A stretch of 23,082 bases of DNA from Cafeteria roenbergensis. Its lineage: Eukaryota > Sar > Bigyra > Bicosoecida > Cafeteriaceae. Positions 596-19,300 of the stretch are shown in pieces. The stretch spans positions 65,001 to 88,082 of the forward strand of contig VLTN01000089.1 in NCBI GenBank assembly GCA_008330645.1, written 5' to 3'. Position numbers and translations under genes: made by a program. Under the pieces are notes generated by a model that saw nothing but the letters and a program-made list of their open reading frames with translations, made no database searches and was not told the DNA's origin. Position 1 is the stretch's first letter, and every line of letters begins with the position of its first letter.

Positions 596-3500
596 TCAGC
601 AGTCCTCCTTGCTCTCCTCCTGCAGCTCGCCGGCGGCTGGCCCGGCGATGCTATGCACCGTCTCGCGCCGAGCTGGTGCGACCGCAGCGGCTCTGCCACT
701 GCCCCGTGCGTCCGCATCGTCAACGGCGCTGCTGGCGACACTGGGAACGGGCTCGACTCGGATGGGTCCGGAAGCGAGCTCCGCCGGGGAAAAGATTGCC
801 CGAGCCAGAGCGTGTGCAGCCGCCTCCGTGAAGGGCACGGCTGCCAGCCCTGCCAGCGACCCTCCGACCCGCCCCCTGCGAGACGCCGCCGTGGTGCGGG
901 CCGCAAACAGGCGGCTGTCAATGTCGTGTGTTGCGCCGGAGTGGCCGGCGGGGCCGGGGGAACGACTCGCCGGTGCTCCAAGGCCCGATCCGCGCGGCAT
1001 CACCGGCGGGTCAAACGCCAGTCCAGCAGCAGTCACGCTTCGGCGAAGCGAGTCGACCACCCCGGGCCCGTGAACTGCAACTGCGAGGCATCGCCCGCCG
1101 GCGCTGGTGGCGAGCGCCTCCTCCGACCCCGCCGCAACGCGCCCTCCGCTGGACCGGACGATGCCAAGCACCTGCCGCGACTGGGCGGGCGTGAGCGCCA
1201 GCAGCTTCATCGCAGCCACCTGCACCCTGTCCCGTCCCAGCGCCTCAAACACGCCCGGCAGAGCCGCGGACGCGGCTCCCCAGGCAGCGGCGTCTCGGGC
1301 GCTGGGGACGACGTCGCTCACGAAGGCGGGGGTCGGCAGAGCCGCGCCCACGCGAAGAGCAGTTGACCTGGTGGCCGCCCCGCCGGTATCGCTGGGCGAC
1401 AGCGCCGGCTCAACGGCGGACGGAGCGACCAGGAAAACTGTCGTCTGCGGCGTCTCCGACGCCAGGCAGCCGCTGCTGCCGCCGCTGCCGCTGCCGCTGC
1501 CGCTGCCGCTGCTGCCGCGCTGCGCTGCCGCTGCCGGCAGGGGCAGCGCCTGTGGACGCTGCGTCGCCGCCTGCCGGCCCGCTGGGTGCGGCCACAACTC
1601 GCTGGCGCGCCGCCCCAGTCCCCGCCAGCGCCCCCGGGTCGGCGGGACACTCACACGCTGTGGGCGCGGCAGAACCGCCATCCGCACCAGCAGCGCCCAG
1701 TGCATCGCCGGCGGTGCTTCCCACAACGCCCCATGCAGCCCTCGCCCGGAGCGAAGCCAGTCGCTCGGGGAAGAGCAGCGCCGCCTCGGCCAAGGCGTGG
1801 GCCGCCGTGGGAGACGCGTGCACGCCCTCCTCAACGCAGCCCTTGCCAAGCAGCGCGCGGAGGCCTAGCCTGCCCACCCCACGCCCGGACGACTGCGCGT
1901 CGTAGGCGCGCCTTGCGGCGGAAAGTATTGCCGAACTCCGCTCGCTGGCGAACTTGGCAGCGCTGGGAAGCCCATGACGCCCTGCCGGCAGAGCCGGAGG
2001 GGCAACCGCCCCCGGCGGGAGAGGAGGCGACGCCGCCGTGGCTGACGGGGCAGCAGCCCGATCCACACCGGCTCTGCCCGGCAGAGCTGACTGCAGAGCC
2101 GCCCACTCCACTTCGACAACGGACCGCGCGGCGGGGGGGGCGAGTGAGTCGGCCGATGCAAAGACCGTGGGTCCCGCCGCCGCCAGCGCCGCGGCCACGG
2201 CGTGCGGGCCGGATAGGAGGAGGGCGAGGGCTGGCCGGGGTCCCCGCAGCCCTGCCGCGCTGCGGCGCCGTAGGTCGTCTAGGGCGCGGGGGGGCGCTTC
2301 AAGGCCACACGCCGCCCGGAGCGACGCGTCGGCTGACCATGCGTGGGAGCCTGCGAGGAGGGCGACCTGGTCGTCGGTCAGCGGCGCGAACCGCAGCGCC
2401 TCCACCTGGAGGCCGGCGCGCGACCATGCCTTGATGGCCCGGGCAATGGCGAGGCTTCCCGGGTCGGCCACAGCCGCGGGACGGACCACGCAGACGACGA
2501 ACGCAGACGACGCAAGGGATGGTGGGGCGAGCAGCGGCAGCAGGCCCAGCGGCCAGTCGCCCAGCGCCGGCCGGAGGACGAGGCTGCTGCTCCAGCGAGC
2601 GCTGCGCACCGCGCCGGCACCAGCGCCCGCGCTTGCCGGCCGCGGCATGGCCCCCACGGCCGCTGGTGGCGCTGGCGCGGCCTGCACAGCCAATGCCGGG
2701 CACAGAGCGCGGACGCCCGCTGTCGCGTCCAGCGCTGCGGCGGAACCTGCCGCAAACACCGCAGCCGCAGCTCTGCCAACGGCAGTCGGCTCTGCAACCG
2801 AGAAGCCCGCGCTTCGCACCGGGTCGAGCGACGAAACCGCCCTGAAGGAGCACGCGTCAGCCTGCCGGGCGGCGGACCGACTTGCAGAGCCTGCCGGAGT
2901 GGATGACGTGGTCAGCAATCCGTGACGACCCCTCGCAGCGCCGGCCGTGCTGCCGGCGACGGATATGGCCGTGTGGCCCGCGCGAGCCAGCGCCTTACGG
3001 TGCGCTGAGGCGACCATAACCGCCGCGAAGGAGGACGGGCCGACTGCCGCTCGCACCGCCCGCGCGGCGCCCGGCCCGGCCACGAGCAGCACCAGCGCCG
3101 GGCGCGACGTCAGCTGGTGGAGTTCCAAACTCCGCACCCAGGCCTCCCGGTCCGCCTCCGAGGCGAGGGACTGCGGCGACGGATACGCCTGCCACTGGCC
3201 TTCCGACGGGCTCGGGACGTCGCCCCCGCCGCTGCCCGCCTCCCTGCCAGCCAGCACGGCCGAGGCTGCTGCAGCGGGCATGCCGAGCGGGAACGAGGCC
3301 GACCCGAGGAGGCAGAGCCCGGCAGAGCCCGTCTCAAGGGGAGACCACTCTTCGCCAGATGCGGCAGAGCTGAACAGCGCCTCGAAGAGCGCTGCCGCCG
3401 GGGCGGTCCGGCGTGGGCAGTGCGCTGCCGTCCACGCCGGGGCGCGCGAAACCGCCGGGTCAGCTGGGTCGACCCCGCTGATGGCGGCAGCAGCTGCCGC

Positions 3501-6500
3501 CGACCTCAGCGATGTCGTGGGTGCCTGGCCTGGCAGCGACTCGCTGCTGATGGCCTCGCCTTGCAAAACTGCAGCCGGAACGGCGTCGGCCAGCGACTCC
3601 CCGGCTGGAAGGAGTGCGTCAGCTGACAGCACGACAAGCGCCGCCTCCACGCAGTCGCGGTCCCCGCGCTCCCCGTCGCAGTCGCCCGCCACTCCCTGAA
3701 GCGACACCAGCGAGGCACCGGCCGAGGACTGTGCGGCTCGCGACGCCGCCGGGTCCGAGGCGTCAGCAGTCGCCTCGAAGCCAGCTCCCCAGGCAGAGCC
3801 GTTTGCGCCGCGAGAGGGCACCCCGGCCCCTGCCATCAGCGGCGCGTCCCACAACGCCCGAACGGCTCGGGGAAGCGAGACGGCGCGCCGGGGCGAGCCT
3901 CCAGCGCCTCCGCCTCCCGAAGGCTCAACAGCAGCGACTGCGGCTGCGGCAGCGGCTCCAGATTCGGCAGCGGATTCGGCAGCGGATTCGGCAGCGGATT
4001 CGGCAGCGGATCCGGCAGCGGATCCGGCAGCGGATTCGGCAGCGGATCCGGCAGCGGATTCGGCAGCGGATCCGGCCGTCTGTCCGGCGCGGCCGGCGGG
4101 CGCGGCCTCCAGGCCAAGCAGGCAGTGAAGGCTCTGCCGCTTGGAACCGGGCATCGCCTCAGAGCCGCCGTGAGGCCACACCGCCTCGACAGTCACGGCT
4201 CTGCCGCCGAGAGACGCCCGCGACATGGACGCCACCGCTGCTGCAGCCTTGGTGGCAGCAGCTTCGCCCATCACCAGCACATCAGCCGCAACGCGCGCCG
4301 CAGGCCCCGCACCCTCTCCGCCCGCGCCAGCGCTCGCGCCCTCAGCGGCAGGCCTGCCGCTCGCAGGGGCCGGACCGGCAGCAGCGCTGTCTCCGCTCGG
4401 CAGCCCCCTCACGCCAAGCACGGCCAGGCGCGCCTCCGCAACCGCTCTCACGACGGCGGCCATGGCCGCCTCGTCGGAGACAGGCGGGCCGACCTCGAAC
4501 GGCTCTCCGTCGCAGGCAGCACCGCCGTTGGCGGCGCCCGTTAGCACCCTCACCAGCGCGAGCGACGGCGATGGCAGAGCGACGGCCGGAAGCCTCTTCC
4601 CGCCCGAGGCGACCGAGCCCGCGGGCCCCACCCACGCAGAGTCACTACCGTCTTCCCCATCGGCCAAAGGTTCCCCCGGCGGGACAGCGGCCCCGTCAGG
4701 GCTGCCACGCTCGCGCCCGGCCGGGCAGAGGCGGCCGCCGAACCACCACGCGCTCTCCCGAGCCGCGGCCTCCGCGGACTCCGGTGCCTCCAGCACGCGC
4801 CTGCAGAGCCGCCCGCGGAGCGAGCCGGGAGCGCTGGCCGCCGCCGCCACCAGCCGAGCCGGGCCCACCGCTGCCGACCACGCAGCCGCTGCGCTGTGGC
4901 CCCTCATGAGCAGGGCAACCGCCGCGTCGCGGCCCCCAGCCCCGTCCCGAGGCGCCCAGTCTGCTGGGACGTCGAGGAGGCTTCCTTGAGCGCCCGAGCC
5001 CCACGCGAGGCGCGCCCCCACCACAGCCAGGCCCGCGCCCCGAGCAGCCTCCATTGCAGCGTGAATCCTGTCCACGGCTGCCAGGAACGAGCCACTGGGT
5101 CCCTCCGAGCCGCCGAAGAGCTCTGCCGGGAAAATGACGCCGACAGTGTGCTCTGCCGCCGCTGAACCGGCTGCAGCCAGTGCCCACGACGACGCAGTCA
5201 CAGCCGCGCACGCTGCGTCCACGCCCGCGCCGCTGCAAGACGGTGTCTCGGCCTGCTCTTCCGGGGAAGCCCCAACCGGCAGCCTTGCCACTTCGAAGGC
5301 GAAGGGTCCGTGCAGAGCCCTGGCAGAGCCGAAGGCGGCAGGGCCGGAGCAGGCCGCAACCACTGCCGCGCCGGCAGCCGCAGCCGCAGCCGCAGCGCCA
5401 GCACCAGCGCCAGCACCAGCAGCATCGGCTGCAGCGCTGCCCCCGCCCAACGCCGCGCCGCCGACGAGCCTTGCTTCAACCCACGTGCGTGCCACGCGCA
5501 GCGCGTCGGCTGGAATCGCACCGGTCGCCCGCAGCAACAGGAGCAGAGCTCTGCCGCCCGCCCCGGCGTCAGCACTGTCGCTGCCACCCGTGACGGCTTC
5601 CACCGCGGAGCGCAGCGTGGTGCACACCCCCCCCACCAGATGGATGCCTGTTCTTTGGCAGGTGGGACCGTCCGGGCAAAGGAGCGACGCGACGGCTCTG
5701 CTTCCTGCAGGTGTGAGTTCGCCGGCGGAGCACCAGGAGTTGACGGCCAGCGACACGGCGACGGCCACCAGCCCCCCAGCGCCAGCTGAGAGGCTCCCGC
5801 CGGCCGCAGACTCGCTGGCCGCACCGGCAAGCGCGGCAGCTGCGCCAGGGGCGAGTGACGGGTACCAGCCAGCCGTAGCGGTCGCGTGATTGAAGCTTGA
5901 CAGGTCGACTGGGCCCGACCCGTGCGATCTGGCAGCCTGCTCGCTGCGGCGCCGCCGCGCCAGGGCCCCATCGCGCGCGCGTCGCTCGGCGGCGGCGACG
6001 TCTGCAGCGGCGTCTCTGGCAGTGCCAGCGGCCGAATTCGGCGCCGCTGCCGCGTCTGCCGTCTTCGGCGCCGCTGCTGCTGCCGCTGCCGCCGTGTCAG
6101 GGGTAGCAGCTCCTGCGCCAGGCGCGTCGTCACCTGCCTCAGTCGCTGCTGCCGGGGCGGGAGCTGCCACAAGTGCGCTCGCTTCCGCCGCAGGGGCGGA
6201 TGGCGGTGCCCCCGCGCCCTCACCGCCGTCCGGTCTCGCGGCTTCACCGGCAGAGCTGCATGCCGCAGCAGCGGCACAGGCGGCAGCGCCCTCTGCCGGA
6301 GCTGCCGTTGCGTCCGTCGCGCTGGCGTCCGCCTGCCCCGGGTCATCCCGGCGCTGGCCGGTGAGAGCGTCGCCCCGCGCGCCTCCTGGGGATGCCTCGC
6401 CGCTCTCGGGCGCAGCCGTCGCCGCCTCTGCCGCCACTCGCGCGGCCGCAGCCTCGAGCCTCGCTTCCCACTCCGAGTCGCTCATTTCGGCGTCGCTCGA

Positions 6501-8729
6501 TTCACCATCGCTCTGCTCCTCCGCGCTACCCGCCGCGCCGTGCAGCGTCGCTCGGGCCGCGTCAGCTGACCGGGAAAGGCCCCCTCCAGCACTGGGGGGG
6601 GCTGGCGGCTCGGCAGATCCGAGCAAGGTCCCTCCTGCCCCCGCCTCGGACGTCGAGGCAGCGCCGCCGGCTGCAGGTCTTGCGCTGTGAGCAGACAAGC
6701 GGGAGCCCTCGAGTGCGGAGTCCGCCTCGGCTGCGCTGTGCGCGCCTCCGCCTCGTCCTCCCTGGCTCAGCAGGCGGAGCACTTCGCCGAGCGGGGTGAC
6801 TTCGCCTCTGCCGGCGTCCCCTGCCGGCTCTGCCGCGGCGTCGTGCGAGGCCAGGATGTCCAGGAGGGCGCCGTCCAGTCCAAGCACGACGCCAGCACCC
6901 GCGTCTGGCTCTGCACGAGCGGCAGTGCCTTCGTCAGCACCGGAAGACCAGGTCGATCCTGACTTTGAAGCCGCCTCTGCGGCCAGCAGAGCGCCCTGAC
7001 GTCGTCGACTGGCGGCGGCAGCGCGGCCCGCCGCTGCCGCTGCCTCTGCCGCCATGGCAATCTGCCAGCCCATCGTCGTCTGCTTCAGCTGCTCGCCGGC
7101 AGGGAGGCTGGCCAAGAACGAGTGCCCCGTCGCGCCCCCCGCCAGCACGCCGCCAGCGGGGTGTGGCATGCGCGTCTCCCCGGAGGCAGCGCCGCCCTCC
7201 GCAAAGTCGTACTCGTCGTCGAATGAGTCGCTGCCGTCGCTCTCCTCCGCTTCCGCTTCCGCATCCGCTTCCGCTCCGCCGCCGCTGCCGTGCCTGTCGT
7301 CGTCCGCGTCGCCGGGCCCTTGCCGGCCCCCCACAGGAGCAGAGGCTGCCTGCAGAGCCCCTCCCACTCCCAATGCCCGCCCCGGTGAGGCCGCAGCTGC
7401 ACTGGGACCCCTGGACGAGGCGGCGCCCGCGCCAGGGCCAGGCACAGTCGCGGTACGCAGAGCTCCCCCAGCAGCGGCTCTCGCAGCCTCCGCGCTGGCC
7501 GCCGCCCTCACGCGCGCACGCTCCGACGCCCAGTAGGTGGACCCTGACGGGTCCATCGACAGGGTTGTGCCTGCTGGGCCGGGGGTCCCGACAGTCTGCG
7601 CCGGAATCGGCTCTGCCGGCACGGCCCTGCCGCCGGCACCCGCTGCCGCCATAGCCGTCCCTGCTGCAGGCAAGCCAAGCTCTGCCGCGACGTCGTCACG
7701 GTCCGATGTTGCACTGCCGGGGAGAAGCGAGGCTGGTGCGTCTGAGGCGAGACTGCTTGCCACCCGTGAGAAGATGGCGTGCCGAGCGGCGGCGTGGCGG
7801 GCCGAGCGGGCAGCGGCGGCCGAGTCCAATGCGGCGTAGATGTCAGCGCCGGCGGCGTCAGCAGCGGCGGCCGAGTCCATGGCGGCGTAGATGTCAGCGC
7901 CGGCGGCGTCAGCAGCGGCGGCCGAGTCCATGGCGGCGTAGATGTCAGCGCCGGCGGCGTCAGCAGCGGCGGGGGCGAGCGAGGAGGAGGCCGCCGCTCC
8001 GCTGGCTTGGAAGCTGCTGGTGGTGGTGCTCCTCGCCTGGCCGAGGGCTGCGTCGAGCGATCGACGAAGCTCCTGCTCACCGCTGGCCAGAGCAGCGTCG
8101 GCGTCGAACGCCCAGTCCTCCGCCGCCGCCAGCGTGCGGCCAGCCAGCCGTGCGCCGGTGCCCGTGACGTTGAGCGCCGCTGGAACCGCGCCGGCGGGGG
8201 GGCTGGCTGCGTGCTGCCCGTCTCCCCCAACCCCAGGGGCCTCGTCGGCAACCACGTCCTCGTCCTCGTCTTCGTCCAGCAAGTCAAGAAGCGCGTCGTC
8301 GTCGTCGTGTTGAAGGGCGTCTTCCTCGTCACTACGCGGCCGCGTCAAAGCGCGGCTGCCGCTTGCGAGCCCGCAGCCGTCCGCGCTCGCCAGTGCCGCG
8401 TACCTCGCCCGGCACGACTGCGGGCTTGCCCCACGCACCCCTCTCTGGCTGCGATGGCTTGTCACACCGAACAGGATGGCGTGGTTGGGGGCACAGTTTC
8501 TGGAAGCCTGGCCACGCGCTCGGTATGTGCGTGGCCCGCAGCCAACCGCCTCGTTTAAACGGCGTGGGGACGGCGCTGCAGGCCCCGGCCGGCGAGGCCG
8601 CGCCGCGCCGTCCACCCCTTGGCCCTAGGCGACTTCTCACGCAAGATTCGAGGCCACGAGGTCCCAGTCGAGGCGCTCGGCCAGCGCTGCCGCCCGAAGC
8701 GCGTCGTCCATGTCGCTGCTCCACTCCAT
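596..8729 (-). CDS. Giant protein with about seven degenerate NDPK-fold modules (three exons)
   Basis: Inferred exons are 8729-8641, 8331-1655 and 1530-596, together 7,701 nt or 2,566 residues. The start ATG at 8729 has a strong Kozak context (GCAGCCATGG) and begins MEWSSDMDDAL. Residues about 31-60 are very acidic, and residues to about 830 are Ala/Gly/Ser-rich disordered sequence. From about 839 onward I see repeated NDPK-like units: a beta strand resembling AVKPDG, an alpha helix ending in a Leu-Val-Ala strand, a PAL/VVAM-like strand, then a segment resembling NIIHGSDSxESAxxEIxxWF. The clearest are module 2 (5155-4705; LEAPESAEAAARESAWWF, with Glu where His belongs), module 6 (2508-1770; VVRPAAV and EGVHASPTAAHALAEAALLFPE, His about 2201 retained) and module 7 (1447-790; VAMKLLALTP-like strand, no His). 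Modules 1, 3, 4 and 5 are weaker. Known multi-NDPK proteins such as NME7 and NME8 have two or three domains and are ciliary. The NDPK reading is motif inference; a divergent alpha/beta repeat is the alternative. Most modules should be catalytically dead. Confidence 0.6.
1472..1519. repeat. CTGCCG hexanucleotide repeat encoding a Ser-Gly linker
   Basis: CTGCCG and CTGCTGCCG units run through this stretch on the plus strand. They encode a Gly-Ser run on the minus strand immediately before the last NDPK-like module. The repeat also supplies several competing AG acceptors for intron 2. Confidence 0.7.
1531..1654 (-). other. Inferred intron 2 of the giant NDPK-like gene
   Basis: The sixth NDPK-like module and the seventh are in different frames. 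A donor GTGAGTGTCC at 1654 and an acceptor CCCCTGCCGGCAG ending at 1531 remove 124 nt. They join the two frames in phase 1, giving a Ser-Ala-Ala-Gln-Arg linker followed by a Gly-Ser repeat. The acceptor lies in a GGCAGC repeat, so the exact AG could differ by 6-nt steps. A true frameshift or an assembly error is the alternative. Confidence 0.5.
3958..4077. repeat. 12-bp tandem repeat encoding Ser-Ala-Ala-(Glu/Gly)
   Basis: About ten units of GATTCGGCAGCG or GATCCGGCAGCG lie in tandem. On the minus strand they encode alternating ESAA and GSAA tetrapeptides. They form a linker between the third and fourth NDPK-like modules of the giant protein. The only unit variation is T or C at one position, which swaps Glu for Gly. 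Confidence 0.85.
7825..7980. repeat. 51-bp x3 in-frame tandem repeat
   Basis: Three near-identical 51-bp units, phased by TAGATGTCAG at 7837, 7888 and 7939, encode repeats of DAAGADIYAAMDSAAAA (ALDS in the last encoded copy). They lie in the disordered N-terminal third of the giant protein, and their length in multiples of three keeps the frame. Confidence 0.9.
8332..8640 (-). other. Inferred intron 1 of the giant NDPK-like gene
   Basis: On the minus strand, exon 1 ends TTGC and the intron opens GTGAGAAGTC at 8640. It closes with GCGTAG at 8332. The phase is 2 on both sides (GC + T gives Ala), so the exon-1 frame joins exactly to the DEEDALQHDDDD frame. Without this intron the large open frame has no ATG near its beginning. 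The left breakpoint of the segmental duplication (8531) lies inside this intron. Confidence 0.65.
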
Positions 8730-9123
8730 GGCTGCTAGCCGGAGCTCAAAACGCAAAAAGCACAGCTAGATGGTGCACAAGCACTGCAGTTGCACCTCAG
8801 CCGCCTCCAAGCGCGCTCGTAGCCGGCCGGTCCACGGTGTGGTGAGCGCCGTTCCTGCCAGCGCGGCCAGCCGGCGACGAGGTATTTCCCCGACGCAAAA
8901 TACTGCCGCCCTCAGCGTGGCGGCCGGCACCACGCCAGCTCCCACGCACGGGGCAGACTGGCACCAGACTTGAGTGAATTCGACTTTGAAGCGTATGGAC
9001 GCGCAAAACGAGCCTTTTTACCTAACAACGGTTGTTTTGGTTGCTGGTCGACCCCAGCGGTGGGTTGCCACGACACCAATGTCGCAACGAGTTCCAAACT
9101 CTGGATGGCTCATCAGAGCCCCA

Positions 9124-9148
9124 GACTCTTCAAGCTGTCTGAAGAGTC
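9124..9148. repeat. Perfect 9-bp hairpin (GACTCTTCA / TGAAGAGTC)
   Basis: The arms at 9124-9132 and 9140-9148 are perfect inverted repeats around a 7-nt loop. The same hairpin is intact in unit 2 at 13109-13133. Confidence 0.85.
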
Positions 9149-9195
9149 CATGTGTGCGGTGCACAACCGTCCGTGTGGGACGGCGTCGACATACA

Positions 9196-9249
9196 CCCTC
9201 GACGATACACCTTGAGCCGGGTGGGCGACTCAAGATGTATCGTCGAGGG
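9196..9249. repeat. 21-bp hairpin with 12-nt loop
   Basis: The arms at 9196-9216 and 9229-9249 are inverted repeats with one mismatch, which would be a G-U wobble in a minus-strand transcript. The core is TCGACGATACACC paired with the TGTATCGTCGA side. In unit 2 (13181-13234) the stem has two mismatches. Confidence 0.9.
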
Positions 9250-9373
9250 ATGAAGTCGCAACAGGCTTTACGCCTGGCAAAGACTCGGGCATCGTATCAG
9301 TGATGGCCCGTGTGTCCAAGTGGACGAGCGGAATACCTTCGGCTCAATGGCCGGGTATCCCGAGATGTCAGAG

Positions 9374-9390
9374 GCTGCCAGCTTGGCAGC
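9374..9390. repeat. 6-bp hairpin at a deletion breakpoint
   Basis: GCTGCC and GGCAGC flank a 5-nt loop (AGCTT). Unit 2 diverges from unit 1 after base 9381, inside this loop, so the 372-bp length difference begins here. Confidence 0.8.
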
Positions 9391-9453
9391 TCTAGAGTGG
9401 CGGCCCACGGCAAGGCTTCCCGCGCCGCGAGTCTTGAGGAGCAGCATGGCCCT

Positions 9454-9477
9454 GCAATACACCACGGGGTGTATTGC
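9454..9477. repeat. Perfect 10-bp hairpin downstream of the minus-strand gene
   Basis: GCAATACACC and GGTGTATTGC flank the loop ACGG. It lies about 21 nt after the stop codon of the minus-strand gene, so it would sit in its 3' UTR. It is missing from unit 2 because it falls in the 372-bp segment. Confidence 0.9.
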
Positions 9478-9497
9478 TGTGAGGGACATGCCAGCTC

Positions 9498-9815
9498 TCA
9501 CAAGCTTGACGATGCGGAGGTGCCGTGGATGAGGCCGTGGTCCGGTTCAATGGGCATCGCAGGCGAAGGCGAGCTGTCCCGAGGCGGGGACTCCAGCGGG
9601 CCGGCGGAGCCTTCCTCAGGCAGAATGGGCGCGTGAAACAGGTCGGGAAGGTGGCTGCTGTTGGGCGTGCCGGACTCAGTTGCGGAGGGTCCCAGCCCTG
9701 ATGCGCCAGCGCCAGGCCACTGGGTCGGTGAGGACCAGTCGGGCATGGGGCTGTCCGGGCCTGGACTCGGCTCGGGGGTGGCCATGGTTTCAGGCATGTG
9801 CTCCAATTCAAGCCA

Positions 9816-9851
<36 letters not shown>

Positions 9852-11053
9852 TCCTGCACTCGGTGACTCCTGCGCTGAGCGCGCCTGAGTCGAGGCATCT
9901 GACAGAGCAGGGCTGTGACACTGGCGCTTGCTTGGCGCCTGTTCGGGGTGAGAGAAGGCTGGGAGGCGTGGCAGATCGGCGAAGTCGTCGTCGTCGTCGT
10001 CGTCGTCGTCGTCTCCTGCACTCGGTGACTCCTGCGCTGAGCGTGCCTGAGTCGAGGCATCTGACAGAGCAGGGCTGTGACACTGGCGCTTGCTTGGCGC
10101 CTGTTCGGGGTGAGAGAAGGCTGGGAGGCGTGCCCGATCGGCGTCGTCGTCGTCGTCGTCAACGTCGTCGCGGGTGCGCTTCGGTGCACGTTCGTGCGGG
10201 GCGTCGACCAAAAACTCGTTGGTCGCAGCGTTGAGCTGGTCCTGCTCGGGCAAGATGCAGGGCTTGGAGAACGCCAGTCTGACGACCGCCTCGGTGGAGT
10301 CTTTGTTGCGCACGAACTTCTCGGGGGATTCTTTTGAGTGGTCAAACTCCTGCTCCCCGACGACCAGCTTGACTCCTTCCTCCACCAAGCGTCGCATCTC
10401 CCCACCGTAGCCCCCCCAGCACTTGAGCAGCCGGAAGTACATCTCCAACCAGGTCTTTGGCTTGAAGGGGGTGCCAGCGTCTTCCGCAGGCCCCACGAAC
10501 GTGACACGGAGCAAGTCGCACTTCAGAGCAAACCGCTGGCCCCCGGACTTGGCGTGCTGCTTCCGGGCATAGTGCTCTTGGCATTCCCGCACGCGGACCT
10601 TGTCGTCAGCATGGATGCCAGGCTTGTACTCGAACTTGGACCAGCGACAAGCCTCCTCCGGGGTGCAGCCGCGGCGTCGGGCGAACTCCTGAATCTTCCG
10701 CACGACTTCACGCACGCACGAGGGCGAGAAGGCGCGCCTGGCGGTCTTCTTCTGAAGCCAAGCCAGATCGTAGCTGCGGGTGGTATCGGGCGACGAGCAG
10801 ATCCGCGTACAAGATACGGCCAAGACAAGTCACAGCTGGCCGCGGCTTCAGCGGCGCATCACGGGCATGCAAGCCTGGCTGCTGCCTTTGCCCATGCGCC
10901 ACCGCCAGCGCGGTCAGGGGCGCAGGAGAAGCACGTGCCGCAGCCTCGAGGCGCGCCGCCTCAGGAGCCGGACACCGCGCGCGAGCCCGGGCTCAGGCGG
11001 GCGATTGCTCACGGCTTCCACTCATCGCGCGATGAGGCGGTCCCAGCCGCCAT
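9498..11053 (-). CDS. Unknown protein with poly-Asp blocks, copy 1 (two exons)
   Basis: Inferred exons are 11053-11013 and 10773-9498, 438 residues. Exon 1 reads MAAGTASSRDEWKP and exon 2 continues YDLAWLQKKTARRAF. Residues about 14-210 look globular, with conserved-looking segments CVREVVRKIQEFARRRG, WSKFEYKPGIHADDKVRVREC, LLRVTFVGPAEDAG and WLEMYFRLLKCWGGYGGEMRR. The C-terminal half is low complexity: three poly-Asp blocks separated by two copies of a 54-residue unit (SHPEQAPSKRQCHSPALSD), then a Pro/Ser-rich tail. I recognise no family. The globular part has more Lys, Tyr, Phe and Asn and is visibly less GC-rich than the neighbours, which could mean horizontal or mobile-element origin. It is divergent from the kinase gene, with 124 bp between the ATGs. 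A donor-like GTGAGAGC overlaps the stop at 9498, so a further exon is possible. Confidence 0.6.
9817..10160. repeat. 162-bp x2 internal repeat with (TCG)n tracts
   Basis: TCG runs at about 9817-9851, 9985-10013 and 10144-10160 encode poly-Asp on the minus strand. They bracket two near-identical 162-bp units phased by TCTCCTGCAC at 9850 and 10012. Bases 9817-10136, close to two unit lengths, are absent from the second duplicated copy. This fits loss through slippage or recombination between TCG tracts. Confidence 0.9.
10774..11012 (-). other. Inferred intron of the poly-Asp protein gene, copy 1
   Basis: The donor GTGAGCAATC at 11012 and the acceptor CACCCGCAG ending at 10774 remove 239 nt. 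Both sides are phase 2 (CC + C gives Pro). Exon 2 alone has no ATG at its 5' end, only a TTG just after an in-frame TGA, so an upstream exon is needed. The equivalent sites in unit 2 are 14302 and 14064. Confidence 0.6.
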
Positions 11054-11177
11054 GCTGTGCTGCCTCGGCGGATTGCCTTTCCCGCGCAGCGAAAAGTGAC
11101 CTCGGGCGCCTGCGAACACCGGCAAAAATAATCCAGTTTTTGGCAGGGCAGCGGCTCTGCAACAACCGACTGTGCTG
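11054..11177. promoter_or_regulatory. Divergent promoter region (unit 1)
   Basis: These 124 bp lie between the inferred ATG of the minus-strand poly-Asp gene (11053) and the first ATG of the kinase gene (11178). They contain the most AT-rich stretch of the unit, CAAAAATAATCCAGTTTTTG at about 11123-11142, which could hold core promoter elements for either direction. The unit 2 copy at 14344-14467 is identical as far as I can see. No specific factor site is claimed. Confidence 0.45.
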
Positions 11178-12614
11178 ATGGGCGGATGTTCGACTGCAAC
11201 CAAAGAACGCGGCGCGTGTGAGCGCGCGGCCGGCATGCCGCGGTGGCACGACAGCATGCGTGGCCCGTTCTCTTTCACGGCGCTGACGGGGGGGGCGACA
11301 AACACGCTGTACCTGGCCCGAGGTGCTTGCGGCGCGCAAGCTGTGGTCCGCTGTCTGGCAGCCTTGCCGGCCAGCGTCGTGGACCGGCGCATGGAGGCGC
11401 GGCTCCAGGAGATGTGCGCCGCAGCGGGCCTTGGCCCCGCCATCTTGAGAGATCTGGAGGCGCTCAAGCCGCCCGGGAGCCCGATGAGCTGGAGAGCAGA
11501 AGCGTATGTTTCCGGCCGCTCGCTGGACAGGGAAAGCATGCGGCTGCCCCGGAACCTCAGGGCGCTGGGCGCTACTCTGCGGGCGATGCACGACTTGTCA
11601 CCGGCCGAGTCTCGCGGCGAGTCGGGCTCCACTCCGCGCATCTCGGCCTGGTCCAGAGCTGCAGCGCTGGGCGACGCCGCAGACGCACTGCTTGCGACGG
11701 ATCCCCGCTCGGCCGCAAGCTCGGAACGGGTCGCCCTTCCCACTCCTGGCGGGGTGGTCAAGGGTGCGGATAGCTGGCGCTCGGTTGCTGACTCGGTTGC
11801 GGCCAGCGTCAAGGCCAGCCTCCGCTCCCTGGGGCCAGAGGCAGGTCGAGAGCGCATCTGCCACTGCGACGCTAACCCAGGGAACGTCATTGTCCTCCGC
11901 CCCTCCGACGCAGCGCTGCCCAGCGCGGGTCCGGGTGCGCTGGGTGCCACCGCCGCCGCCCGGAAGCCCGGCTCTGCTGCCTCAAGCTCGGGCGCGGGGG
12001 TCTCGTCGCCCGCCGCAGCCGGCCCGTGCCTCCAGCTGATCGACTTCGAGTACGCCGCCTGGGCCCCAAGGGCCCTCGATTTGGCCAACGTCTTGGCTGA
12101 AGCGGAGTTTGAGAACTCCGCGTCAGCGCCCGAGGGCGAAGACTCAGGGCAGGGCTTTGCCCACAACCCGCGGTGGGCGCTGCCTCGCGCCAGTGTGGCG
12201 GAGCTGCTGGCAGGCTACGGCGGCTCTGCGCTGGCGCCGCAGCTTGCGAAGGAGGCGCGGGCTCTGCTGCCGCTGATTCACCTCTCGTGGGGGTTGTGGG
12301 GTGTGATGATGGCTGCGAGGTCCGGGCAGAGCGTCAACGAAGTGGGAGCCGCGGTCGATGCCGACGGCGGGCGGTCGGGGTGGTCCTACTGGCACTATGC
12401 GGCGGTCAGACTTGGGCAAGCGGCCGCAGCAGGCGCTGCGCGTGCGCCCGTGGCGGCCGCTGCCGGCTCGGCCGGCGACAGGCGACGCGTACCTGGTGGA
12501 CGCCGAGGGCAGTTGTGTGGCCCGCAGCCAACCGCCTCGTTTGAACGGCGTGGGGACGGCGCTGCAGGCTCCAGCCGGCGAGGCCGCGCCGCGCCGTCCA
12601 CCCCTTGGCCCTAG
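11178..12614 (+). CDS. Choline/ethanolamine kinase, copy 1 (C-terminus altered by the duplication)
   Basis: This ATP-dependent kinase would phosphorylate choline or ethanolamine in the first step of the CDP-choline/CDP-ethanolamine (Kennedy) pathway in the cytosol. The frame is open without introns for 478 codons. The family signatures appear in order. TALTGGATNTLYLA is the nucleotide-binding loop. ICHCDANPGNVIVL is Brenner's HxDxxxxN motif (His229, Asp231, Asn236). LQLIDFEYAAWAPRALDLAN is the DFEY magnesium-binding motif (Asp289). HLSWGLWGVMMAA and WSYWHYAAVRL are the usual C-terminal helices. An Ala/Ser/Pro-rich insert separates the HxDxxxxN and DFEY motifs. ATG 11178 is the first in frame; 11235 is an alternative. 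The native stop was lost at the duplication breakpoint, so codons after 12510 come from the filler and antisense intron sequence of unit 2. Choline versus ethanolamine preference cannot be told. Confidence 0.92.
   Translation: MGGCSTATKERGACERAAGMPRWHDSMRGPFSFTALTGGATNTLYLARGACGAQAVVRCLAALPASVVDRRMEARLQEMCAAAGLGPAILRDLEALKPPGSPMSWRAEAYVSGRSLDRESMRLPRNLRALGATLRAMHDLSPAESRGESGSTPRISAWSRAAALGDAADALLATDPRSAASSERVALPTPGGVVKGADSWRSVADSVAASVKASLRSLGPEAGRERICHCDANPGNVIVLRPSDAALPSAGPGALGATAAARKPGSAASSSGAGVSSPAAAGPCLQLIDFEYAAWAPRALDLANVLAEAEFENSASAPEGEDSGQGFAHNPRWALPRASVAELLAGYGGSALAPQLAKEARALLPLIHLSWGLWGVMMAARSGQSVNEVGAAVDADGGRSGWSYWHYAAVRLGQAAAAGAARAPVAAAAGSAGDRRRVPGGRRGQLCGPQPTASFERRGDGAAGSSRRGRAAPSTPWP
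12511..12516. other. 6-nt filler at the duplication junction
   Basis: AGTTGT separates the end of unit 1 (GAGGGC) from the start of unit 2 (GTGGCCCGC). It matches neither outer flank: CGGTATGTGC precedes unit 1 and CGTGACACTG follows unit 2. This looks like an end-joining scar, or a seam in the assembly. Confidence 0.75.
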
Positions 12615-12715
12615 GCGACTTCTCACGCAAGATTCGAGGCCACGAGGTCCCAGTCGAGGCGCTCGGCCAGCGCTGCCGCCCGAAGCGCGTCGTCCATGTC
12701 GCTGCTCCACTCCAT
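12615..12715 (-). pseudogene. Orphan first exon of the giant NDPK-like gene (unit 2)
   Basis: The 89-nt first exon (12715-12627) with its Kozak ATG and the donor GTGAGAAG at 12626 is an exact-looking copy of 8729-8641. Its intron remnant stops at the junction at 12517, beyond which lies the antisense of kinase copy 1. Exon 2 is over 4 kb away, past unit 1. A transcript from here could splice over unit 1 into exon 2 at 8331, or it could be dead. It is convergent with kinase copy 1, whose ORF stop (12614) lies in the intron remnant. Confidence 0.7.
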
Positions 12716-13420
12716 GGCTGCTAGCCGGAGCTCAAAACGCAAAAAGCACAGCTAGATGGTGCACAAGCACTGCAGTTGCACCTCGGCCGCCTCCAAGCGC
12801 GCTTGTAGCCGGCCGGTCCACGGTGTGGTGAGCGCCGTTCCTGCCAGCGCGGCCAGCCGGCGACGAGGTATTTCCCCGACGCAAAATACTGCCGCCCTCA
12901 GCGTGGCGGCCGGCACCACGCCAGCTCCCACGCACGGGGCAGACTGGCACCAGACTTGAGTGAATTCGACTTTGAAGCGTATGGACGCGCAAGACGAGCC
13001 TTTTTACCTAACAACGGTTGTTTTGGTTGCTGGTCGACCCAGCAGTGGGTTGCCACGACACCAATGTCGCAACGAGTTCCAAACTCTGGATGGCTCATCA
13101 GAGCCCCAGACTCTTCAAGCTGTCTGAAGAGTCCATGTGTGCGGTGCACAACCGTCCGTGTGGGACGGCGTCGACATACACCCTCGACGATACACCGTGA
13201 GCCGGGTGGGCGACTCAAGATGTATCGTCGAGGGATGAAGTCGCAACAGGCTTTACGCCTGGCAAAGTCTCGGGCATCGTATCAGTGATGGCCCGTGTGT
13301 CCAAGTGGACGAGCGGAATACCTTCGGCTCAATGGCCGGGTATCCCGAGATGTCAGAGGCTGCCAGTCCGGGCCTGGACTCGGCTCGGGGGTGGCCATGG
13401 TTTCAGGCATGTGCTCCAAT
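12716..13420. other. Non-coding spacer, unit 2 copy
   Basis: This is the copy of the promoter and hairpin-rich spacer described for unit 1. It keeps the 9-bp and 21-bp hairpins (13109-13133 and 13181-13234) but lacks the 10-bp hairpin. A 1-nt deletion near 13038 breaks the plus-strand open frame present in unit 1, which supports a non-coding reading. Confidence 0.6.
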
Positions 13421-14343
13421 TCAAGCCAGATCGGCGTCGTCGTCGTCGTCAACGTCGTCGCGGATGCGCTTCGGTGCACGTTCGTGCGGGGCGTCGACCA
13501 AAAACTCGTTGATCGCAGCGTTGAGCTGGTCCTGCTCGGGCAAGATGCAGGGCTTGGAGAACGCCAGTCTGACGACCGCCTCGGTGGAGTCTTTGTTGCG
13601 CACGAACTTCTCGGGGGATTCTTTTGAGCCGTCAAACTCCTGCTCCCCGACGACCAGCTTGACTCCTTCCTCCACCAAGCGTCGCATCTCCCCACCGTAG
13701 CCCCCCCAGCACTTGAGCAGCCGGAAGTACATCTCCAACCAGGTCTTTGGCTTGCTGGGGGCGCCAGCGTCTTCCGCAGGCCCCACGAACGTGACACGGA
13801 GCAAGTCGCACTTCAGAGCAAACCGCTGGCCCCCGGACTTGGCGTGCTGCTTCCGGGCATAGTGCTCTTGGCATTCCCGCACGCGGACCTTGTCGTCAGC
13901 ATGGATGCCAGGCTTGCGCTCGAACTTGGACCAGCGCCAAGCCTCCTCCGGGGTGAAGCCGCGGCGTCGGGCGAACTCCTGAATCTTCCGCACGACTTCA
14001 CGCACGCACGAGGGCGAGAAGGCGGGCCTGGCGGTCTTCTTCTGAAGCCAAGCCAGATCGTAGCTGCGGGTGGTATCGGGCGACGAGCAGATCCGCGTAC
14101 AAGATACGGCCAAGACAAGTCACAGCTGGCCGCGGCTTCAGCGGCGCATCACGGGCATGCAAGCCTGGCTGCTGCCTTTGCCCATGCGCCACCGCCAGCG
14201 CGGTCAGGGGCGCAGGAGAAGCACGTGCCGCAGCCTCGAGGCGCGCGGCCTCAGGAGCCGGACACCGCGCGCGAGCCCGGGCTCAGGCGGGCGATTGCTC
14301 ACGGCTTCCACTCATCGCGCGATGAGGCGGTCCCAGCCGCCAT
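13421..14343 (-). pseudogene. Unknown poly-Asp protein gene, copy 2 (truncated)
   Basis: Inferred exons are 14343-14303 and 14063-13421, about 227 residues. The globular N-terminal part of copy 1 is kept. The 320-bp deletion removes two poly-Asp/linker units and shifts the frame to a TGA at 13421-13423. The 372-bp deletion removes most of the former C-terminal tail and the old stop. Across the shared exon-2 part I count 12 base differences from copy 1 in nine codons, every one changing the amino acid (for example Arg-Pro, Cys-Phe, Cys-Trp, Tyr-Arg, His-Gly). It could still make a short protein. Confidence 0.6.
14064..14302 (-). other. Inferred intron of the poly-Asp protein gene, copy 2
   Basis: The donor GTGAGCAATC and acceptor CACCCGCAG are conserved from copy 1. 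The intron is 239 nt in both copies, with one visible base difference at about 14247. Confidence 0.55.
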
Positions 14344-14467
14344 GCTGTGCTGCCTCGGCGGATTGCCTTTCCCGCGCAGCGAAAAGTGACCTCGGGCGCC
14401 TGCGAACACCGGCAAAAATAATCCAGTTTTTGGCAGGGCAGCGGCTCTGCAACAACCGACTGTGCTG
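14344..14467. promoter_or_regulatory. Divergent promoter region (unit 2)
   Basis: This is the copy of the 124-bp region between the divergent ATGs in unit 1, including the AT-rich core at about 14413-14432. I see no base difference from unit 1. Confidence 0.45.
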
Positions 14468-15807
14468 ATGGGCGGATGTTCGACTGCAACCAAAGAACGC
14501 GGCGCGTGTGAGCGCGCGGCCGGCATGCCGCGGTGGCACGACAGCATGCGTGGCCCGTTCTCTTTCACGGCGCTGACGGGGGGGGCGACAAACACGCTGT
14601 ACCTGGCCCGAGGTGCTTGCGGCGCGCAAGCTGTGGTCCGCTGTCTGGCAGCCTTGCCGGCCAGCGTCGTGGACCGGCGCATGGAGGCGCGGCTCCAGGA
14701 GATGTGCGCCGCAGCGGGCCTTGGCCCCGCCATCTTGAGAGATCTGGAGGCGCTCAAGCCGCCCGGGAGCCCGATGAGCTGGAGAGCAGAAGCGTATGTT
14801 TCCGGCCGCTCGCTGGACAGGGAAAGCATGCGGCTGCCCCGGAACCTCAGGGCGCTGGGCGCTACTCTGCGGGCGATGCACGACTTGTCACCGGCCGAGT
14901 CTCGCGGCGAGTCGGGCTCCACTCCGCGCATCTCGGCCTGGTCCAGAGCTGCAGCGCTGGGCGCGACGCCGCAGACGCACTGCTTGCGACGGATCCCCGC
15001 TCGGCCGCAAGCTCGGAACGGGTCGCCCTTCCCACTCCTGGCGGGGTGGTCAAGGGTGCGGATAGCTGGCGCTCGGTTGCTGACTCGGTTGCGGCCAGCG
15101 TCAAGGCCAGCCTCCGCTCCCTGGGGCCAGAGGCAGGTCGAGAGCGCATCTGCCACTGCGACGCTAACCCAGGGAACGTCATTGTCCTCCGCCCCTCCGA
15201 CGCAGCGCTGCCCAGCGCGGGTCCGGGTGCGCTGGGTGCCACCGCCGCCGCCCGGAAGCCCGGCTCTGCTGCCTCAAGCTCGGGCGCGGGGGTCTCGTCG
15301 CCCGCCGCAGCCGGCCCGTGCCTCCAGCTGATCGACTTCGAGTACGCCGCCTGGGCCCCAAGGGCCCTCGATTTGGCCAACGTCTTGGCTGAAGCGGAGT
15401 TCGAGAACTCCGCGTCCGCGCCCGAGGGCGAAGACTCAGGGCAGGGCTTTGCCCACAACCCGCGGTGGGCGCTGCCTCGGGCCAGTGTGGCGGAGCTGCT
15501 GGCAGGCTACGGCGGCTCTGCGCTGGCGCCGCAGCTTGCGAAGGAGGCGCGGGCTCTGCTGCCGCTGATTCACCTCTCGTGGGGGTTGTGGGGTGTGATG
15601 ATGGCTGCGAGGTCAGGGCAGAGCGTCAACGAAGTGGGAGTCGCGGTCGATGCCGACGGCGGGCGGTCGGGGTGGTCCTACTGGCACTATGCGGCGGTCA
15701 GACTTGGGCAAGCGGCCGCAGCAGGCGCTGCGCGCGCGCCCGTGGCGGCCGCTGCCGGTTCGCCCGGCGACAGGCGACGCCTACTTGGTGGACGCCGAGG
15801 GCCGTGA
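14468..15807 (+). pseudogene. Choline/ethanolamine kinase, copy 2 (frameshifted)
   Basis: It matches copy 1 from ATG 14468 to the duplication end, but two extra bases in GCGCGACGCC at 14961-14964 shift the frame after about codon 164. The shifted reading runs to a stop at 15331. The HxDxxxxN, DFEY and C-terminal helix motifs are all intact in the other frame, which ends at TGA 15805-15807. That stop lies just past the unit boundary (15802) and is probably the ancestral kinase stop. Downstream of the insertion, most base differences from copy 1 are synonymous (for example TTT-TTC, TCA-TCC, CGC-CGG), so the sequence was under constraint until recently. A sequencing error in the GC run would restore an intact gene. 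Confidence 0.8.
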
Positions 15808-16351: not shown

Positions 16352-16375
16352 TCAACGCAGGCGGGGGCCGGTTCG
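16328..16375. repeat. 19-bp hairpin around the TTLL stop codon
   Basis: The arms at 16328-16346 and 16357-16375 are inverted repeats with one mismatch, built around CGAACCGGCCCC and GGGGCCGGTTCG. The 10-nt loop contains the TGA (16352-16354, minus strand) that ends the TTLL open frame. It could act in 3'-end formation, or it could mark a small inverted duplication. Confidence 0.85.
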
Positions 16376-19300
16376 GCGTCTGTCCAGATGTCGGTCGGAG
16401 ACGCTGGCCGCTACGCGCACGGATGTTGCTGCAGGCACGGGGCCCGGACGGGGGGGCCTGTTCGGGGCCTCCCTGGCCCGAAACGCGGGGGGCGCGGCCT
16501 GCTCCGGCTCCGACTGGCGCCCGCCGCCCCGCCCTCCCCTGGCCAGGTGCGCCAGCTTGAGGCGCAGGACCTTGCGATAGGCGTCACTGCCCGGGCAGAT
16601 CATCGAAAACCCGCCCGAGTCCTGGGGAGCCACGCCGTAGCGGCGCGGCTCGTGCTCGCCAAACACCCTTCCCAGGTCCCGGTTCAGGGCGTCGCGCTCC
16701 GGGCCGGACTGCACGGCGCCGGAGGGAGCGGCCATTCCTAGCCCGGCGGCGTGATGCTGCGGCCTGGACGCCGCCTTGGCCGTGGCAGCTCGGCGCGACG
16801 TCACTGTGCGCACCAGCTCTGCAGGGCTGAAGGCAAGGGGGTCGACAACCTTGGCGATGTCCCGCACCAGGCTCAGCTTGACGCGCGTGTCCAGGTCCGA
16901 GTCCACGCCGAGCGAGGGGCTGGAGTTCACCTCGATCAGGTGCGCCTTGCCGGTGTCGTCCAGCAGCACGTCGTAGCCGAAGAGCTCGAAGCAGTTGGGC
17001 TGGTTGGGGATGACGTCATCCACGCACACCAAGCTCTTCACGAGCACCTCCTTCACGCGGCGCCAACAGCGCGCCGAGTCCACGCCGGACGCGGCCAGGC
17101 GGCGCCACAGGTAGCCCAGGCTCACCTTGGTCCCGCCTCCCTCGCCCTCCCGCGCCGCTGCGGCCACCGCTGCCCCCTTGTCGTGAGCGTGCTTTTGCAG
17201 CGAGCTGTTGGTCAAATGCATCGCCTTGTCGTATGTGGAGGCGGCCTCCCGCGAGTACGGCACGGAGCTCACCCGCGCGAACCCTTCCTCGTACACGAAG
17301 GCCTCAAGCGGCGAGAAGGAGGTCACCAGCACGTAGACTCGCAGGTCGAACTTGTACCCGTCCAGAAGCATTGAGTTTCCCACGTACTTTTGCAGCACGC
17401 ACGCCGAGCCGTACGTCACATCCGTGATCTCGCGCACCAGCGAAATGCCCCGCCCGCGCGACAGCCCCACCGGCTTCAAGATCCAAATGTTCTCGTTGGC
17501 GGCCGACGGCGTGGAGGACCGGTCGCCGCCTGCAGCACCCCGGTCGGAGGACCGGCCGGCCGGCCCCAGCATCATGGCGGCGCGTGCAGCCAGCGTGGCC
17601 GACGAGCCGGCAACCCCCATCCCGGTGCCTGCCCCCACCAGCCCGTACGCGGCGCCTGTGCCAGAGGGCTCTGCGTCGCCTCGGAACGCGGCTCTGCCAA
17701 AGGCCTCAGCGAAGGCGAGGTACTCTTTGGGGAGCACGAACGTGGGCGGCAGAACGCCGAACGCGCGGGCCATACGACCCCCAAGGCACTGGTACCGCGC
17801 CAGGTTCGTCTTGAGCAGGTCCTTCCTCGTCAGCTCGCGGGCGTGCCGAAAGTGGTTGAACCGCTGGCAAGTCAAAAGGTTCGCCCGGACCACCTGCGGC
17901 TTCCCCCAGCTCCAGTACAAGTGCCAGCACGCCGCGTCGCCAACCGCGGCTGGGGCCTCCACCCAGCCTCCCCCGGACGCCTGCTCCAGCGCGAGCCGCA
18001 CCAGGTGGTACACCTCGGCTCTGCCAGCCGGCAGCACGCGAAAGACCCGCAGCGGCGGGTCCGGCAGGCCCAGGGCGGCCCGACGAGCAACCTCCTCCTC
18101 CCCCAGCTTGGCAGCGTGGGCCCGGAGTAGAGCCATCTTGCCGCCCCTGAAGGGAACTCGGAACTCGCCCTCGAAGGCCTCGCCGCCCGCGGGGGCGTCG
18201 TCAGCACCTGCATGGTCATCGTTGTCCTCCCCGATGACGTCATCGAGGGTATCGTCCGGGTCGACGTCTGGGCCGCGGCCAGCTGCATAGTCCTCCCGTG
18301 CCCAGTCGCTGCGCCGCATAGGCAGGGTCTCGGGCAGGGGTTCCCCGGTCAGGAGCCGGGGGGCCTCAGGAGACAGCGCCACCAGCGCCTGCATGGCTCT
18401 GCTGACTCTGCTTGCCGCTGCCTCGGCCTCAGCAGAGCGGTCTCGTGCGCGACGGCTGCCGGACGCGCCCTGTCGCTTGGCCGTCGCGAACCCCCCGCGC
18501 ACCACGTTGGAGTTGGGGTTCTCGCCAACGCACGCGGCAAATAGCGCCGCGAAGTCGGGGAACCACGGCGTGTAGTCCACCCGCGGAGGGGATGCTGGCG
18601 GCGAAGGCACGGGCGTGAGCAGGGCAGACGACGGTTCGAGGTCCTGTCGCCGCCGCGGTGTGGCGCAGGCAGCAGCGGGTGCCACCGGGGGCTGAGAGGC
18701 GCCGCCGTCGTTCGAAGTCGCGTCTCTGCTCTGAGCGGAGTCTGTACGGGCGGAGGATGGGGAGGGGTCGTCGGCCGCCATGCGCTCTGCGATGGCCAAC
18801 GCTCGTTGCATGCGAGCGGAGGCAGCGTCGCTTGGAGCGGCAGCAGCCAGTGGTGCCGCCTCTTCAGCAGCCGAGGCCCGTGAGAGATCCAGGCTGAACT
18901 TCGAACGCCAGCCGGCGACACTGGAACCAGCGGCTGCCTCGCCAGCTGCCGCCTCGGATCGCTCACCCCGCGCCGGATGCGGCGCCTCTGAAGCTGCCGC
19001 CTCGGATCGCTCACTCCGCGCCGGATGCGGCGCCTCGGCAGCTGCCGCCTCGGATCGCCCACTCCGCGCCGGATGCGGCGCCCCTGCAGCTGCCGCCTCG
19101 GATCGCTCACCCCGCGCCGGATGCGGCGCCTCGGCAGCTGCCGCCTCGGATCGCCCACTCCGCGCCGGATGCGGCGCCCCTGCAGCTGCCGCCTCGGATC
19201 GCTCACTCCGCGCCGGATGCGGCGCCCCTGCAGCTGCCGCCTCGGATCGCTCACTCCGCGCCGGATGCGGCGCCTCGGCAGCTGCCGCCTCGGATCGCTC

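Follow-up and report, generated by a model that had tools for sequence, protein, structure and literature searches.

The gene and its surroundings

The window analyzed here is a stretch of 23,082 nucleotides of the Cafeteria roenbergensis genome, lying on contig C89 and having a GC content of 70.9%. The source genome comprises 36.3 Mb in 167 contigs. Table 3 of PMC6972860 gives 36,327,047 bp in 170 contigs for the CrBVI assembly, with N50 = 460,467 and GC = 70.1%, and the same source gives 1.67-1.89 introns per gene. C. roenbergensis is a bacterivorous marine flagellate.

An open frame on the minus strand at 1410-8615 corresponds to 2,401 amino acids, including intron bases at both ends. By our own estimate its length is far above the expectation by chance from base composition. 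A second open frame on the same strand, 596-1849, lies in a different reading frame and contains module 7, the last of the modules discussed below. We infer that splicing of three exons generates a product of 2,605 amino acids, with 0 internal stops. Exon 1 (8641-8729, minus strand) begins with the ATG at 8729, includes MEWSSDMDDALRAAALAERLDWDLVASNL and the first half of a Myb/SANT-like domain, and is followed by the donor GTGAGA. The putative intron 1 (8449-8640, minus strand) runs from GTGAGA to ATCGCAG. Exon 2 (1655-8448, minus strand) provides residues 30 to 2295 with split codons at both ends, and comprises the remainder of the Myb-like domain, a long Ala-rich acidic stretch and modules 1 to 6. 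The putative intron 2 (1531-1654, minus strand, 124 nt) has a GTGAGT donor at 1654 and the acceptor GCCGGCAG, and would join the frames of modules 6 and 7; frame composition was also used in placing it. Exon 3 (596-1530, minus strand) is open, and provides residues 2295-2605 and the stop codon. Both introns are predicted from the sequence. In other genes of the same genome we identified by eye two introns with GTGAGC donors and the acceptors TTCGCAG and CTCGCAG. A reading of the window made from the sequence alone had proposed a long minus-strand gene here, and the continuation of the 2,401-amino acid frame in a second frame across a plausible 124-nt intron agrees with this.

The N-terminus of the spliced sequence, where exon 1 is joined to the beginning of exon 2, matches two Pfam Myb families. 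Myb_DNA-bind_4 (PF13837) aligns with residues 3-49 (16.5 bits, E = 0.011, cut-off 27) and Myb_DNA-bind_6 (PF13921) with residues 3-47 (11.3 bits, E = 0.42, cut-off 22.9), so that neither reaches its curated cut-off. Judged by eye, W3, W22 and CRARY presumably occupy the expected anchor positions of a Myb domain. In the PDB the N-terminal stretch has a single match at E up to 10, to splicing factor CEF1 (E = 1.3), which we take to be a Myb protein. These two weak Pfam matches hint at a Myb/SANT-like head, which the sequence-only reading had overlooked. We treat it as a lead only, because the match hangs on the splice sites chosen. The head is followed by an Ala-rich acidic stretch of ∼840-850 residues that is probably disordered. 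Residues 61-900 contain 31% Ala, 14% D+E and 6% K+R, so the earlier description of this region as acidic holds. Within the low-complexity N-terminal region there are about three 51-nt repeats (7810-7972, minus strand; 3.2 copies, 98% matches), each corresponding to 17 residues, ADAAGADIYAAMDSAAA.

The window also contains a tandem duplication, with units 8528-12513 and 12514-15805 (∼4.0 and 3.3 kb) that are 98.7% identical over two long pieces. It includes exon 1 and its 5′ flank, the second copy of which (12715-12627) is identical over the 110 nt compared. It also carries a choline/ethanolamine kinase-like gene, with plus-strand copies at 11172-12614 and 14533-15807 (PF01633, E = 1.1e-17 and 5.3e-10 respectively), the latter matching only the later part of the model. 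A repeat of a 162-nt unit (2.2 copies, with GTC runs) at 9822-10170 encodes poly-Asp in a minus-strand frame, and is mostly absent from the second duplication unit. The duplication could be true, or could be two haplotypes joined during assembly. A gene of the tubulin-tyrosine-ligase family lies at 16352-21451 (PF03133, E = 1.1e-59). Its long N-terminal region is encoded by a 48-nt unit repeated 16.1 times (92% matches) and a 60-nt unit repeated 6.1 times (100% matches). Rfam and tRNA scans found nothing in the window.

NDPK likeness of the protein and its modules

With a cut-off of 27, the Pfam NDK model (PF00334) falls short on the open reading frame at 20.2 bits (E = 5.6e-4). For the modules taken alone it gives 17.3 bits with module 2 (E = 0.0044) and 13.5 bits with module 6, and modules 1, 3, 4, 5 and 7 have no match at E up to 10. 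The best result with NCBIfam is E = 0.24 for module 2, the other three queries being without a match.

We therefore turn to profiles of our own. The main NDPK profile was built from 34 domains: 15 bacterial or archaeal, six from the same genome and 13 PDB chains. It scores 35.3 bits on the whole protein, a value that leans on the same-genome domains. None of 4,000 shuffled sequences reaches this score (maximum 5.9 bits), where shuffling was local and kept the composition, residues being exchanged inside blocks of 20 or 60. The best of 1,187 other open reading frames of the same genome (100 amino acids or more, from 20 other stretches) scores 9.4 bits. The reversed protein falls below listing. 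The score is made up of six pieces, at residues 1205-1266, 1807-1836, 2015-2063, 2102-2138, 2226-2257 and 2388-2460. Only the piece 1205-1266 is strong alone (19.1 bits), the other five contributing 0.2 to 3.2 bits each. The three pieces of module 6 occur in the order of the domain, around an insert.

Three further profiles were compared with the same controls. Leaving out the own-genome domains (28 sequences) gave 16.4 bits (shuffle maximum 5.6), ten PDB group II domains gave 19.6 bits (maximum 6.1), and group II domains from the PDB plus the same genome also gave 19.6 bits (maximum 7.0). None of the 4,000 shuffles or 1,187 open reading frames did as well with any of the three. The NDPK likeness is above chance, as had been claimed, and this holds with profiles free of own-genome domains. 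A group I profile (19 sequences) gave 2.9 bits with the whole protein, equalled by four of 4,000 shuffles and one of 1,187 open reading frames, i.e. no signal.

The modules were examined individually in two tests. In one, each was compared with 3,000 shuffles using two profiles. In the other, 2,000 shuffles were used with profiles that exclude the own genome: the PDB group II profile and then the 28-sequence profile. Results are given as pairs of values in these orders. Module 2 (4734-5153, minus strand; residues 1129-1268) scores 25.8 and 23.3 bits, equalled by 0 and 0 of 3,000 shuffles, and by 0 and 0 of 2,000 with the own-free profiles. Module 6 (1764-2504, minus strand; residues 2012-2258) scores 19.6 and 20.9 bits, again with 0 and 0 of 3,000 and 0 and 0 of 2,000 shuffles as good. 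Module 5 (2733-3365, minus strand; about residues 1725-1935), a degenerate module with a core PALVLLVAGPGAARAVRAAVGP near 1815-1836, scores 6.7 and 9.5 bits, with 3 and 1 of 3,000 and 2 and 8 of 2,000 shuffles as good. Module 7 (773-1447, minus strand; about residues 2323-2547) has an insert of ∼46 residues after β1. It scores 8.7 and 9.8 bits, with 1 and 0 of 3,000 and 24 and 8 of 2,000 shuffles as good. The marginal module 1 (5283-5387, minus strand; residues 1051-1085) is a β4-αC stretch with AAVVAACSGPAAFGSARALHGPFAFEVAR that scores 0.9 and 3.5 bits; 67 and 9 of 3,000 and 10 and 125 of 2,000 shuffles are as good. For module 3, 729 and 1,466 of 3,000 shuffles are as good; the own-free profiles give no score and 502 of 2,000. 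For module 4 the values are 749 and 435 of 3,000, and 727 and 962 of 2,000.

Modules 2 and 6 are clearly above the composition controls, 5 and 7 well above them and 1 marginally so; 3 and 4 are not. At the level of sequence we therefore regard two modules as solid (2 and 6), two as good (5 and 7) and one as marginal (1), with two unsupported. The seven or so modules of the sequence-only reading are rejected: modules 3 and 4 do no better than shuffles, and the alignment of module 3 with NDPKs is poor. An alignment of the modules with each other was discarded as too loose.

The modules resemble group II more than group I domains. A group II profile of PDB NME7 domains gives 16.3, 14.6, 5.8 and 1.2 bits with modules 2, 6, 5 and 7 respectively, compared with 7.5, −0.6, 2.2 and −0.9 bits for the group I profile, although this preference may partly reflect breadth because the group I profile is the narrower. 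With the group I profile the numbers of shuffles as good, of 2,000, are 0 for module 2, 13 for module 5, 26 for module 6, 167 for module 7 and 295 for module 1.

Two other searches bear on the assignment. A profile built from the β4-αC stretches of five repeats of the window, containing no NDPK, had six PDB matches at E up to 10, of which five are NDPKs. All five match in the β4-αC stretch with E = 0.68 to 2, and three are variants of the Mycobacterium tuberculosis protein. This is a consistency check only, because the stretches were picked with the NDPK profile. When modules 1-2 were compared with the own genome in six frames (E up to 10), the matches listed were the gene itself and one NDPK domain (E = 0.6), the third module of a triple-NDPK/adenylate kinase protein on contig C3. 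Modules 6 and 7 had no match in the genome beyond their own gene.

Active sites and modeled folds

Catalytic residues are numbered after human NME1, in which Lys12, Tyr52, Arg88, Thr94, Arg105, Asn115, His118 and Glu129 have catalytic roles. The reference row of our active-site alignment carries all ten sites. The full set of eight residues is absent from every module of the Cafeteria protein. In module 2 Glu1250 aligns with the catalytic His118, just as the sequence-only reading had it, with Phe at Lys12, Ser at Arg88 and Ala at Thr94; Arg105 and Glu129 are retained. For modules 1 and 5 the alignment placed only two sites: Arg88 is kept in both, and Thr94 is replaced by Phe and Ser respectively.

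Module 6 has four of the eight residues checked (Thr94, Arg105, His118 and Glu129), together with Ser120. His2240 (codon 1818-1820) aligns with the catalytic His118 and there is Arg at Lys12, both as previously noted. Tyr52 is replaced by Ala, Arg88 by Leu and Asn115 by Glu, and an insert of ∼85 residues separates the positions of Thr94 and Arg105. The earlier suggestion that this is the one possible active unit is upheld as regards the histidine, but activity is doubtful given the loss of Lys12, Tyr52, Arg88 and Asn115.

Module 7 has Ala at Lys12, leaving β1 without a lysine, and retains Arg88. Our alignment placed the sequence HDIDS (residues 2496-2500) at the catalytic histidine. That placement was rejected; in the AF2 model its pLDDT is ∼30, compared with ∼80 for the tail helix. 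The catalytic histidine of module 7 has most likely been lost, because the confident C-terminal helix of the model is the one without HDIDS. This is in keeping with the earlier view that module 7 has neither Lys nor His.

The AF2 models of modules 6 and 7 have mean pLDDT values of 61.8 and 60.6. Using VIA, 50 of 50 among the matches listed for each have NDPK titles. With Foldseek neither has a match at E = 0.001 or better; the RP2-Arl3 entry 3bh6_B is among the matches of module 7. The models of both modules match the NDPK fold, a result that is not independent of the sequence comparison because the AF2 alignments included bacterial and archaeal NDPKs. The central claim of the sequence-only reading, that the large protein is built of NDPK-like modules most of which are inactive, is supported by the profile statistics, by the window-repeat profile and by the NDPK structures that the models of modules 6 and 7 match.

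Relation to NME proteins and a possible flagellar role

NME7 (FAP67) is located at the ciliary doublet, and has two NDPK modules behind a DM10 domain. Like the Cafeteria protein it has group II modules, and the profile of NME7 PDB chains is well above the controls on modules 2 and 6. The PDB chains of NME7 are only 372-395 amino acids in length, however, and in the Cafeteria open reading frame DM10 has no match (E up to 1). By eye, L005, L006 and L008 seem to be NME7-like genes in the same genome. RSP23 is an NDPK of the radial spoke, and HDYBP (the name is uncertain) is a dynein heavy-chain-binding factor of Chlamydomonas, on which the open-licence PMC literature yielded no paper.

NME5, 7, 8 and 9 are found in cilia and flagella and, NME6 excepted, the members of group II are generally regarded as devoid of NDPK activity (PMC13256974). 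The available text of this 2026 review ascribes an early origin to the group II genes, and calls the group poorly understood. NME8 has three tandem NDPK modules, which in zebrafish lack key residues (PMC2777172), and its sea urchin orthologue IC1 is an outer-arm dynein chain (PMC8754002). The Cafeteria protein resembles NME8 (TXNDC3, IC1) in its tandem modules and lost residues (PMC2777172, PMC8754002), and with at least four supported it has the three tandem modules of NME8 and more. But where NME8 has a thioredoxin start and then its three modules, the Cafeteria protein has a start of Myb/SANT-like type, then a long stretch of low complexity, and four to five modules with large inserts. Thioredoxin has no match in the open reading frame (E up to 1) or the spliced N-terminus (E up to 10). 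RP2 (NME10) contains a partial NDPK domain without the catalytic His (PMC2777172). It is alike in being His-less, and in the match of the RP2-Arl3 entry to the fold of module 7, but has a single partial module beside a TBCC domain. That known NDPK proteins have at most three modules, as the sequence-only reading stated, agrees with the available text of PMC13256974 and PMC2777172. As far as our searches reach, four or more modules, the lack of thioredoxin, a Myb-like head and a length of 2,605 residues set this protein apart from the described NME proteins.

We consider that the protein is a scaffold of diverged group II-type NDPK-like modules that serves the flagellar apparatus without catalysis, with a probability of about 0.5. 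A short Myb/SANT-like helical domain would be followed by the Ala-rich acidic stretch and then an array of at least four, and probably five, modules. These would transfer no phosphate, and would act as binding or docking units for partners in the flagellar apparatus, in line with the role ascribed to group II NME proteins in axonemes. Docking is the simplest reading because the active sites are broken. The most likely location would be in a dynein- or doublet-associated complex, or during its assembly; the neighboring tubulin-tyrosine-ligase-family gene is a weak hint in the same direction. Module 6, the sole module with His, Thr94, Arg105 and Glu129, might still bind and sense nucleotide. More tentatively, the head, a disordered tether and five or six pseudo-NDPK modules might form a multivalent docking platform for flagellar motors or doublets, with one module as a nucleotide sensor. 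If so, it would be the longest NDPK array known to us.

Other explanations have been considered. The protein might belong to an already described, wider eukaryotic family of large multi-NDPK proteins, possibly involved in dynein assembly. This would fit the resemblance of the modules to group II and the early emergence of group II genes given in PMC13256974. Our search of the open-licence PMC literature found no multi-NDPK array of this kind, which argues weakly against it, and we regard such a family as unlikely. The protein might instead be a nuclear regulator, attached to DNA or histones through its Myb/SANT-like domain and using the array to bind partners or nucleotides in the nucleus. This would explain the two Myb-family matches and CEF1 as the sole PDB match. 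Yet both matches are well under their cut-offs, the modules resemble ciliary NME domains, and SANT-type domains can bind proteins too. We think this role unlikely.

An array in which module 6 still functions as an NDPK or relays phosphohistidine, with the other modules as its regulators, is distinctly improbable. The equivalents of His118, Ser120, Glu129, Thr94 and Arg105 in module 6 would be in keeping with this, but its four substitutions and the insert between the positions of Thr94 and Arg105 argue against it. We give very little credence to the idea that the NDPK signal is a false one arising from Ala/Gly-rich sequence in a largely disordered protein. It is true that only modules 2 and 6 lie far above noise with all four group II-containing profiles, that modules 3 and 4 give nothing, and that neither the Pfam NDK cut-off nor significance with the group I profile is reached. 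Against this, with these four profiles, including two built without own-genome domains, no shuffle or control reading frame reaches the score of the protein, the reversed protein fails, and the pieces of module 6 are correctly ordered.

An array of four or more modules in a flagellate, apparently none of them with a complete active site, would mean that the NDPK fold can be used as a repeated building block, like WD or TPR. It would also provide a natural series in which to ask what group II NME modules do after catalysis has been lost. It would show, too, that proteins of this kind in GC-rich protists can escape a standard domain search, Pfam NDK being below its cut-off on this reading frame.

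The contig C3 protein (L010:1034-6226, minus strand; an open frame of 1,731 amino acids) offers a comparison within the same genome. A search of viral contigs with its NDPK found no relative. It too has several modules in one polypeptide, two strong and one degenerate, the latter being the middle one. Five adenylate kinase domains distinguish it, as does a Dpy-30 motif that is below cut-off. Its modules 1 and 3 retain all ten of the active-site residues checked, and loss of the active site is therefore not general in C. roenbergensis.
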